This document shows positions 15,572 to 31,246 of a DNA stretch of 50,637 nt, piece by piece. The first letter of the stretch is position 1. Every line of letters starts with the position of its first letter. The notes under the pieces are model-generated. The model was not told where the DNA came from, did not search any database, and saw only the letters and a list, made by a program, of their open reading frames with translations. The stretch covers positions 1 through 50,637 of the forward strand of contig JAFAKX010000067.1 of NCBI GenBank assembly GCA_019234945.1. The letters run 5' to 3'. The position numbers were made by a program, and so were the translations under genes. Origin of the DNA: Silvibacterium sp. (GTDB lineage Bacteria > Acidobacteriota > Terriglobia > Terriglobales > Acidobacteriaceae).

Positions 15572-15647
15572 TGGAGCACCGGGCGGGGATTGAACCCGCG
15601 AATACTGGTTTTGCAGACCAGCGCGTTAGCCACTTCGCCACCGGTGC
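15572..15647 (-). tRNA. tRNA-Cys (GCA)
   Basis: GCACCGGTGGCGAAGTGGCTAACGCGCTGGTCTGCAAAACCAGTATTCGCGGGTTCAATCCCCGCCCGGTGCTCCA; 7-bp acceptor stem, A13/A22, U73, encoded CCA. Confidence 0.96.
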
Positions 15648-15694
15648 TCACGGCCCGCCACAAAATCGTGCGGCGGGATCATGCGAAAACGTTG

Positions 15695-16351
15695 TTACTG
15701 CGGCTGCGCGGTGGTGCGCAGGTAGGGCTTCACTGTCTTGTAGCCAGGGAAGATTTTATCCGCTTCTTCGTTTGAGACCGCGCCGGTGATGATGACGTCT
15801 TCGCCCTGCTTCCAATCTGCCGGAGTCGCGACGCGATGCTTCGCTGTGAGCTGAATCGAATCAAGCACGCGGAGAATCTCGTCGAAGTTGCGACCCGTGG
15901 TCATGGGATAGGTCAGCGTCAACTTGATACGCTTGTCAGGGCCGACGACAAAGACGGCGCGCGCGGTTGCGTTGTTGGCCGGAGTACGACCTTCGCATGA
16001 ATCGCCCGCATCCGCTGGCAGCATATCGTAGAGCTTGGCAATTGTCAGTTCGGGGTCGCCGATAAGGGGGTACTTCACGGCGTGACCAGTGACTTCCTCG
16101 ATGTCCTTTGCCCACTTGCCATGATCGGACACCGGGTCGACGCTGAGGCCGATCACTTTGGCGCCCCGAGCCGCAAACTGATCCTCGAGTGCGGCGACGG
16201 CGCCGAGTTCGGTTGTGCAGACGGGAGTAAAGTCCTTGGGGTGAGAGAACAGAACAGCCCAGTTATCGCCGATCCACTCGTGGAAACGGATGGTGCCCTG
16301 CGTGGTTTCGGCAGTGAAATCTGGTGCGATATCGTTGATCCGAAGTGACAT
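15695..16351 (-). CDS. Peroxiredoxin, 1-Cys/Prx6 type
   Basis: HPKDFTPVCTTELG, long C-terminal domain, start MSLRINDIAPDF with SD GAGAGG. Confidence 0.92.
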   Translation of the reverse strand: MSLRINDIAPDFTAETTQGTIRFHEWIGDNWAVLFSHPKDFTPVCTTELGAVAALEDQFAARGAKVIGLSVDPVSDHGKWAKDIEEVTGHAVKYPLIGDPELTIAKLYDMLPADAGDSCEGRTPANNATARAVFVVGPDKRIKLTLTYPMTTGRNFDEILRVLDSIQLTAKHRVATPADWKQGEDVIITGAVSNEEADKIFPGYKTVKPYLRTTAQPQ

Positions 16352-16395: not shown

Positions 16396-16431
16396 AAAAA
16401 CCCACCCGGCATTCTAGCAGCGGGTGGGTTT
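16396..16431 (-). terminator. Intrinsic terminator-like hairpin in the peroxiredoxin 5' leader (putative attenuator)
   Basis: Minus strand AAACCCACCCG-CTGCTAGAATGC-CGGGTGGGTTTTTAG: 11-bp stem followed by T tract, upstream of (not downstream of) a same-strand gene. Confidence 0.8.
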
Positions 16432-16462
16432 GAGAATTTCGAAGCTTGTCAGTTCGATTCGC

Positions 16463-16537
16463 TCATACACACACCCGCACGGGGCAGCAGCGACAGCAGC
16501 AGCACAGACACATGCAGGTTGGAGCGATCCTGGTCAT
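16463..16537 (-). CDS. Poly-cysteine leader peptide (24 aa)
   Basis: Minus-strand ATG...TGA: MTRIAPTCMCLCCCCRCCPVRVCV; 9 Cys of 24 including TGC TGC TGC TGT CGC TGC TGC; ends 31 nt before the terminator stem. Confidence 0.7.
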   Translation of the reverse strand: MTRIAPTCMCLCCCCRCCPVRVCV

Positions 16538-16609
16538 AAGGTGTAAACGGCGGAGGGACTCCGCTTCACAACAGTGAGAATATGCCTTGAGGAAGGTGGT
16601 GTCAATCGG

Positions 16610-17509
16610 ATGAGCTTACGCGAATTTGAATACCACGTCTGTGACGTGTTCACAAGCAAGCCTCTCGAAGGCAATCAACTGGCGGTATTCCCCGATGCGG
16701 CCGGTCTCAGCGAGAGCGAGATGCAGGCCATTGCACGCGAGACGAATTTGTCGGAGACGACATTCGTGGTCCGACGGGATGTGGAGACAGAGCGCGAGAG
16801 GGGCGTGCGTGTGCGAATCTTCACCACTCGGGAAGAGCTGCCGTTTGCGGGGCATCCTACGCTGGGCACGGCGGCTACGATCCGCAGGACGATTCCGGGG
16901 TACTCCGGAGCTGAAAGGATCATTCTGGACTTGAATGCGGGACGGGTGCCGGTGGTATTTCCGCCGGAGCGAAACACTGGAAATCGCAGCTATGGCGTGA
17001 TGACGCAGCCTGAACCGATCTTTGGTTCGATGCATGAGATCGAAGCAGTCGCGCCATTGCTCGGCCTCCGAGAGGGGGACTGCGCGACGGAGCCGCGGCC
17101 CCAGACGGTGTCAACCGGAATCCCATACTGCATTGTTCAGCTTCGGTCGATGGATGCACTGGCACGATTGCGTGTAGATCTCGCCGCGAGCGAGCGGTAT
17201 TTCATATCGTCGGAAGCGAAGTTTTTCTATGCCATCGCGCCTGAGGGGCCTCGGGTGTGGCGGGCGCGGATGCAGTTCTATAACGGCGAGGATCCCGCCA
17301 CGGGATCGGCTGCCGGCTGCGCGGTTGCTTACCTACTGAGGCATGGAATCGCCGCTCCTGATGAGGAGATACGCATCCGCCAAGGGGTAGAAATTTCGCG
17401 TCCGAGCGACCTTTACGGATGGGCAAATTTGATCTCGGGAAAGATTACAAATGTGCGGCTGGGTGGGAGCACTGTCCACGTGGCAAATGGGCGCCTTTTC
17501 CTTGAATGA
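16610..17509 (+). CDS. PhzF family isomerase-like protein
   Basis: VCDVFTSKPLEGNQLAVFPDA, ETTFV, FTTREELPFAGHPTLGTA, NGEDPATGSAAG. Confidence 0.92.
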   Translation: MSLREFEYHVCDVFTSKPLEGNQLAVFPDAAGLSESEMQAIARETNLSETTFVVRRDVETERERGVRVRIFTTREELPFAGHPTLGTAATIRRTIPGYSGAERIILDLNAGRVPVVFPPERNTGNRSYGVMTQPEPIFGSMHEIEAVAPLLGLREGDCATEPRPQTVSTGIPYCIVQLRSMDALARLRVDLAASERYFISSEAKFFYAIAPEGPRVWRARMQFYNGEDPATGSAAGCAVAYLLRHGIAAPDEEIRIRQGVEISRPSDLYGWANLISGKITNVRLGGSTVHVANGRLFLE

Positions 17510-22837: not shown

Positions 22838-22917
<80 letters not shown>

Positions 22918-31059: not shown

Positions 31060-31194
31060 TAGCGGGGCATCCGGATTTCCGCCCGAGTACGTTCAACTGT
31101 GATCTTGAAGGTTCCGGAGGAGCGTTTGCGCTTATCGGAGGGCCCATTCACTGTCCAGATGGTGAGTACAAATCTCACAAAATCGGCCCGAGAC

Positions 31195-31246
<52 letters not shown>

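Follow-up and report, generated by a model that had tools for sequence, protein, structure and literature searches.

A candidate cysteine-codon transcription attenuator preceding a peroxiredoxin and a tRNA-Cys gene in Silvibacterium sp. and its relatives

The window analyzed here is a 50,637-nucleotide stretch of a Silvibacterium sp. contig. Its minus strand carries, in order, a predicted promoter, a cysteine-rich leader ORF, an intrinsic terminator, a peroxiredoxin gene (prx), and a tRNA-Cys gene (Table 1). A preliminary description had reported a minus-strand leader ORF at 16537-16463 with nine Cys in 24 codons, followed by a terminator hairpin with a T tract and then by the prx Shine-Dalgarno sequence and ATG. 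Direct reading of 16537-16463 (-) reproduced this ORF exactly: it runs from ATG to TGA, mixes TGC and TGT codons, and encodes MTRIAPTCMCLCCCCRCCPVRVCV. The sequence also agreed with the downstream layout, with the terminator stem AAACCCACCCG/CGGGTGGGTTT at 16431-16398, the T tract ending at 16396, and the prx Shine-Dalgarno sequence GAGAGG at 16367-16362 before the ATG at 16351. No clear Shine-Dalgarno sequence precedes the leader ORF in the window.

Table 1. Positions of the features discussed in the text (window coordinates).
Feature	Position	Strand	Description
tRNA-Cys(GCA), second isoacceptor (tRNA-Cys2)	15572..15647	-	U73, 76 nt; ARAGORN
prx/tRNA spacer	15648..15694	-	hairpin CCCGCCGCACGATTTTGTGGCGGG, no T tract
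prx	15695..16351	-	218-aa peroxiredoxin, 1-Cys/Prx6-like (AhpC-TSA + 1-cysPrx_C)
Intrinsic terminator (regions 3:4)	16396..16431	-	11-bp stem and T tract; fold about -21 kcal/mol
Region 3	16420..16426	-	CACCCGC; terminator 5' arm; pairs with region 2 in the predicted antiterminator
Leader ORF	16463..16537	-	24 codons, 9 Cys; Cys run at codons 12-15 (16504-16493); read directly
Region 2	16472..16480	-	GTGCGGGTG, codons 20-22, within the leader ORF; predicted antiterminator strand
Region 1	16511..16518	-	CCTGCATG; predicted to pair with region 2 if the leader is ribosome-free; RNAalifold, swap tests
Promoter (predicted)	16577..16605	-	-35 TTGACA (16605-16600), 17-nt spacer, -10 TATTCT (16582-16577)
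phzF-family gene	16610..17509	+	divergent from the leader-prx unit
Ordinary tRNA-Cys(GCA) (tRNA-Cys1)	22838..22912	+	adjoins tRNA-Gly; outside the operon

The predicted -10 box ends 39 nt 5' of the leader ATG, and we infer a start site from it, with the RNA expected to begin near 16570. Promoters of the TTGACA-N16-18-TANNNT class scoring at least 9.5 precede 75% of 80 non-redundant leaders, compared with 1% of shuffled upstream sequences. The flanking genes, the phzF-family gene on one side and a polyprenyl synthetase gene on the other, both lie on the plus strand, which leaves prx and the tRNA gene as the only members of the operon. The hairpin was rejected as the terminator of a neighboring gene, since phzF points away from it and the minus strand has no gene upstream. 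The genome itself (72% complete, 3.5 Mb, 256 contigs) was searched by pattern and by gene family. It contained 36 exact TGYx4 matches, compared with 19 for the reversed-pattern control; among the 30 of these 36 that were read, only the window's site combined a short ORF with a downstream terminator, and a chance artefact was therefore rejected.

Conservation of the Cys run and the hairpin before orthologous prx genes, a check proposed in the preliminary description, was found in relatives. Leader, terminator, and prx occurred together in 12/12 closest orthologous loci (L004-L015), which belong to other genera and have diverged in sequence. A covariance model of the leader built from 11 orthologous loci recovered the window leader at E 1e-37. 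Of 301 genomes in the family, 209 contained a match at E<=0.1, and more than 90 sites reached E<1e-6. Among 297 genomes drawn from across the phylum, strong matches were confined to one Acidobacteriaceae-like family; beyond it, weak matches were found in 5 genomes at E<=0.01, which is approximately the chance expectation. The named relatives of prx came from Acidobacteriaceae/Acidobacteriales MAGs and Terriglobus albidus; the leader is present in T. albidus DSM 26559 (L127), a cultivated relative. The Proteobacterial, Bacteroidota, and other relatives had no leader according to the RNA model, and leader calls based on an ORF only among them, such as L141, L166, L175, and L202, resembled chance ORFs. 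No Rfam family matched the leader at E<=1, and a known RNA family was rejected on that basis. At L103, a model match about 400 nt into the oriented locus has a decayed Cys run, with a tRNA-Cys some 300 nt downstream. Given the lost run and the distance to the tRNA, it was not kept as a leader and tRNA locus; the switch may have been lost naturally here.

The 80 non-redundant leaders start with ATG in 76 cases and contain 27.8% Cys, with a run of at least three Cys in 72; runs of up to eight Cys occur in the family. The leader peptides vary in length and sequence while Cys is retained, and both Cys codons are used (TGC 319, TGT 210). That Cys is kept despite synonymous drift suggests that the Cys codons are translated.

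The leader RNA offers a complete trp-type set of alternative pairings. Regions 1 and 2 can form a hairpin that extends over the Cys run, regions 2 and 3 an antiterminator (GCGGGTG:CACCCGC), and regions 3 and 4 the terminator. RNAalifold predicted the 1:2 hairpin and the terminator in each of two separately aligned lineages, and the terminator with its T tract is kept at nearly every family site. For 2:3, the duplex energy of cognate partners was -16.3, compared with -15.0 for swapped partners (0/5000 permutations) and -12.2 after synonymous recoding; for 1:2, it was -25.0 compared with -21.5 for swapped partners (0/5000 permutations). Relative to cognate pairs, synonymous recoding cost 4 to 6 kcal/mol, and the 1:3 pairing, used as a negative control, showed no difference between cognate and swapped partners. 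The 1:2 pairing was also superior to swaps between nearest relatives (p about 5e-6). The 2:3 pairing had no significant advantage over nearest-relative swaps (p 0.1-0.2) and its column-level covariation was weak, both of which can be explained by the almost invariant core GGGTG:CACCC.

Constraint folding of the window leader gave outcomes that depended on the position of the ribosome. In these computations, a footprint on Cys12-17 led to the 2:3 antiterminator, an A site at Cys18, Cys23, or the stop codon led to the terminator, and ribosome-free RNA adopted the 1:2 hairpin together with the terminator. With the ribosome at Cys10, minimum-energy folding gave the antiterminator as long as region 4 had yet to be transcribed and the terminator once the RNA was complete. 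As modeled, these outcomes are trp logic. The same data bear on the idea that the leader is a gene of its own, which yields a short RNA (an sRNA) or a Cys-rich microprotein (a thiol-rich peptide) and ends at the terminator. Leader and terminator do form a compact promoter-to-terminator unit, as such a gene would; however, the unit holds its position before prx, tRNA-Cys, or sulfur genes across the whole family, the peptide drifts in length and sequence, and region 2 is under RNA-level selection according to the recoding control, which makes this explanation extremely improbable.

ARAGORN placed a tRNA-Cys(GCA) directly 3' of prx in the window, about 47-48 nt away, and likewise at the 12 other loci closest to it. 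A same-strand tRNA-Cys lies at most 300 nt behind prx in 65/91 leader-bearing prx loci, a lower estimate because the leader calls in this count were ORF-based and include about four likely chance ORFs. In another 22 loci with leader and prx, this interval contains no tRNA, and the same is true of all 70 prx loci without a leader in the collection of named genomes. The tRNA behind prx has U73 in 65/65 cases and a GCA anticodon loop in 64/65. Genus members with the operon nearly all possess tRNA-Cys1 as well, the exception being G003, a genome that is 75% complete. By-eye comparison showed a C in tRNA-Cys2 where tRNA-Cys1 has G48. Thus the peroxiredoxin gene, which the preliminary description had named as the regulated target, is part of the unit, although not alone, since a tRNA-Cys gene follows it.

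The spacers between prx and the tRNA fold well (median z -2.6), and at least four T residues follow the hairpin in only 2/65. The hairpin is likely a processing or stability element rather than a terminator, and the absence of a T tract behind a well-folding spacer in 63/65 suggests that the tRNA may be processed from a common transcript. Two loci (L098 and L110) carry a longer unit consisting of the leader, prx, a second prx-like gene, and a tRNA-Cys about 115 nt further.

The leader is also found without prx. At ten loci (L062, L079, L081, L085, L097, L107, L109, L112, L113, and L118), leader and terminator stand directly before a tRNA-Cys gene, which is there the leader's first and closest target. 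These loci are informative about the possibility that attenuation is mainly translational or acts via Rho, with the hairpin as a bystander and the tRNA gene transcribed from its own promoter within the 47-nt spacer. Mycobacterial Cys leaders, which lack conserved terminator hairpins (Seliverstov et al. 2005, PMC1262725), could be taken as a precedent. In contrast to that precedent, a strong terminator with a T tract is retained at nearly every site here and its 5' arm takes part in the alternative pairing, most loci have a hairpin in the spacer where the tRNA promoter would lie, and a leader-terminator unit directly before tRNA-Cys leaves no coding gene for translational control. We consider this possibility very unlikely.

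Sulfur genes form a further group of targets. The leader type precedes genes of the nitrite/sulfite-reductase family and siroheme genes at L111, L114, and L116, sulfite reductase/siroheme genes in class families f5 and f7 (among L269-L288), and an SsuA-family/ABC/cysD operon at L115. In the Silvibacterium genome, a leader ending in MLIPVSFVSIPACLCRECCFTLSRICE and a terminator precede sulfite reductase (C56), and the Cys-rich leader MVRATQTRFCCCLSSTSDGCTQ precedes cysD (C78); no simple terminator was recognized behind the latter. Both leaders are likewise present in close relatives. Paralogous reductases (L301-L304) have no Cys-rich leader, and cysS has no Cys leader in the eight genomes checked, including this one. 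The same leader type before the genome's own sulfite reductase and cysD ties the signal to cysteine supply. Other genes behind leaders encode sulfide:quinone-reductase-like, TonB-dependent outer-membrane, and TIM-barrel proteins (L068, L108, and L117). At L317, the leader MKSTSHLRCCCCHACCACRGFVRACMCCCC, with 12 Cys in 30 codons, lies about 350 nt upstream of a cysD domain match.

A different signal would be sensed if the nascent poly-Cys peptide responded to redox state or metals, by oxidation of its thiols or by binding metal in the exit tunnel, and arrested the ribosome, so that the same RNA switch answered an oxidant or a metal instead of Cys-tRNA. The peroxiredoxin target, Cys runs of as many as eight, and the conservation of Cys while most other residues drift are consistent with such a sensor. 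However, leaders before sulfite reductase, siroheme, ssuA-cysD, and tRNA-Cys genes fit Cys-tRNA supply and not metals, and the number and spacing of Cys vary freely, as codon counting would allow and a binding motif would not. Sensing by the peptide is thus unlikely.

Taken together, the conserved Cys run, the terminator, the alternative pairings, the promoter, and the recurrence of this leader type at sulfite reductase and cysD bear out the attenuator reading of the preliminary description. On this sequence evidence, it is highly probable that a ribosome-mediated (trp-type) Cys-codon transcription attenuator controls the two-gene operon prx-tRNA-Cys2. The most direct signal supported by the leader sequences would be failure to decode Cys codons (low Cys-tRNA), for which oxidation of cysteine may be one cause. 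In the proposed sequence of events, RNA polymerase would start near 16570 with a ribosome trailing on the 24-codon leader. When Cys-tRNA is plentiful, the ribosome would reach the stop codon and cover region 2, the 3:4 pair would form, and transcription would stop at 16396. When Cys-tRNA is scarce, the ribosome would stall in the Cys run and occlude region 1, so that regions 2 and 3 could pair, no terminator would form, and prx and tRNA-Cys2 would be transcribed. If the leader is left untranslated, the 1:2 pair would allow the terminator to form.

What follows from this anatomy is a predicted response to Cys decoding only. The transcription start, stalling, readthrough, and co-transcription are proposed, as is the physiological cause, which may be cysteine shortage or thiol oxidation that damages cysteine or CysRS. 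Decoding could fail through sulfur shortage, oxidation of cysteine, CysRS damage, or a lack of tRNA-Cys, and any of these would release a thiol peroxidase together with a reserve tRNA-Cys. We lean slightly towards the view that tRNA-Cys2 is such a reserve isoacceptor, kept off by the poly-Cys attenuator and released with the thiol peroxidase when Cys decoding fails.

In trp/his-type attenuators, the operon is preceded by a leader ORF with many copies of the regulatory codon, by 1:2, 2:3, and 3:4 pairings, and by an intrinsic terminator. The present system shares a Cys-rich leader ORF, mutually exclusive 1:2/2:3/3:4 pairings, and a terminator between the ORF and the first gene; it differs in its Cys codons, its occurrence in Acidobacteriota, and in having a peroxiredoxin and a tRNA gene in place of a biosynthetic operon. 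T-box riboswitches also link transcription attenuation to tRNA charging; however, they bind the tRNA directly and have no leader peptide, unlike the system described here. No T-box covariance match from Rfam was found in the window region at E<=1.

Closer counterparts use Cys codons. Mycobacterial polycysteine leaderless sORFs are short Cys-run ORFs that precede sulfur/cysteine genes (Canestrari et al. 2020, Mol Microbiol 114:93, as cited in PMC13236596). The short Cys-run ORF is common to both, and many of the present leaders start 5-15 nt after the -10 box, which makes some relatives' leaders nearly leaderless; in contrast, the window leader is predicted not to be leaderless, the terminator hairpin is conserved, and the phylum and sequences are different. 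A prx or tRNA target, as found here, is absent from the accounts of mycobacterial leaders in PMC1262725 and PMC13236596. The uORFC-8-2 motif is a uORF before cysS in Rhodobacterales with Cys codons at positions 14-15 and a terminator, for which a response to charged tRNA-Cys was predicted (PMC8632094). It resembles the present leaders in its Cys codons and terminator, whereas the present leaders stand before prx and tRNA-Cys, and cysS has none in the eight genomes checked.

Cys codons are thus already known to serve in attenuation, and their use in this way ahead of a tRNA gene and prx appears to be new. Neither leader-peptide control of a tRNA gene nor a Cys attenuator in Acidobacteria was found in the searchable, open-access literature, and as of 2010 almost no predicted acidobacterial attenuator had an assigned function (PMC2965389). 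One widespread acidobacterial attenuator family would gain a clear signal, a mechanism, and a regulon. The circuit would form a feedback loop, with a tRNA gene under a leader peptide decoded by that same tRNA; it would link antioxidant defense to the state of cysteine decoding, and it allows a direct test of whether tRNA supply is a regulated output.

In some leader lineages, tRNA-Sec(TCA) replaces tRNA-Cys behind prx (L018, L025, L101, and L264, at 61-174 nt), and in two others (L082 and L267) it lies about 600 nt behind prx; at L024, a tRNA-Sec is located just upstream of a leaderless prx. The presence of tRNA-Sec in the same slot suggests that the circuit may guard the decoding of chalcogen amino acids more generally. 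In the window, the 3' part of tRNA-Cys1 is repeated as a 57-bp direct repeat with 98% identity (22861-22917 and 31190-31246). The 8.3 kb between the repeats contain carbonic anhydrase-, multicopper oxidase-, and acyltransferase-like genes, with no integrase recognized, and this segment looks like an island inserted at tRNA-Cys.
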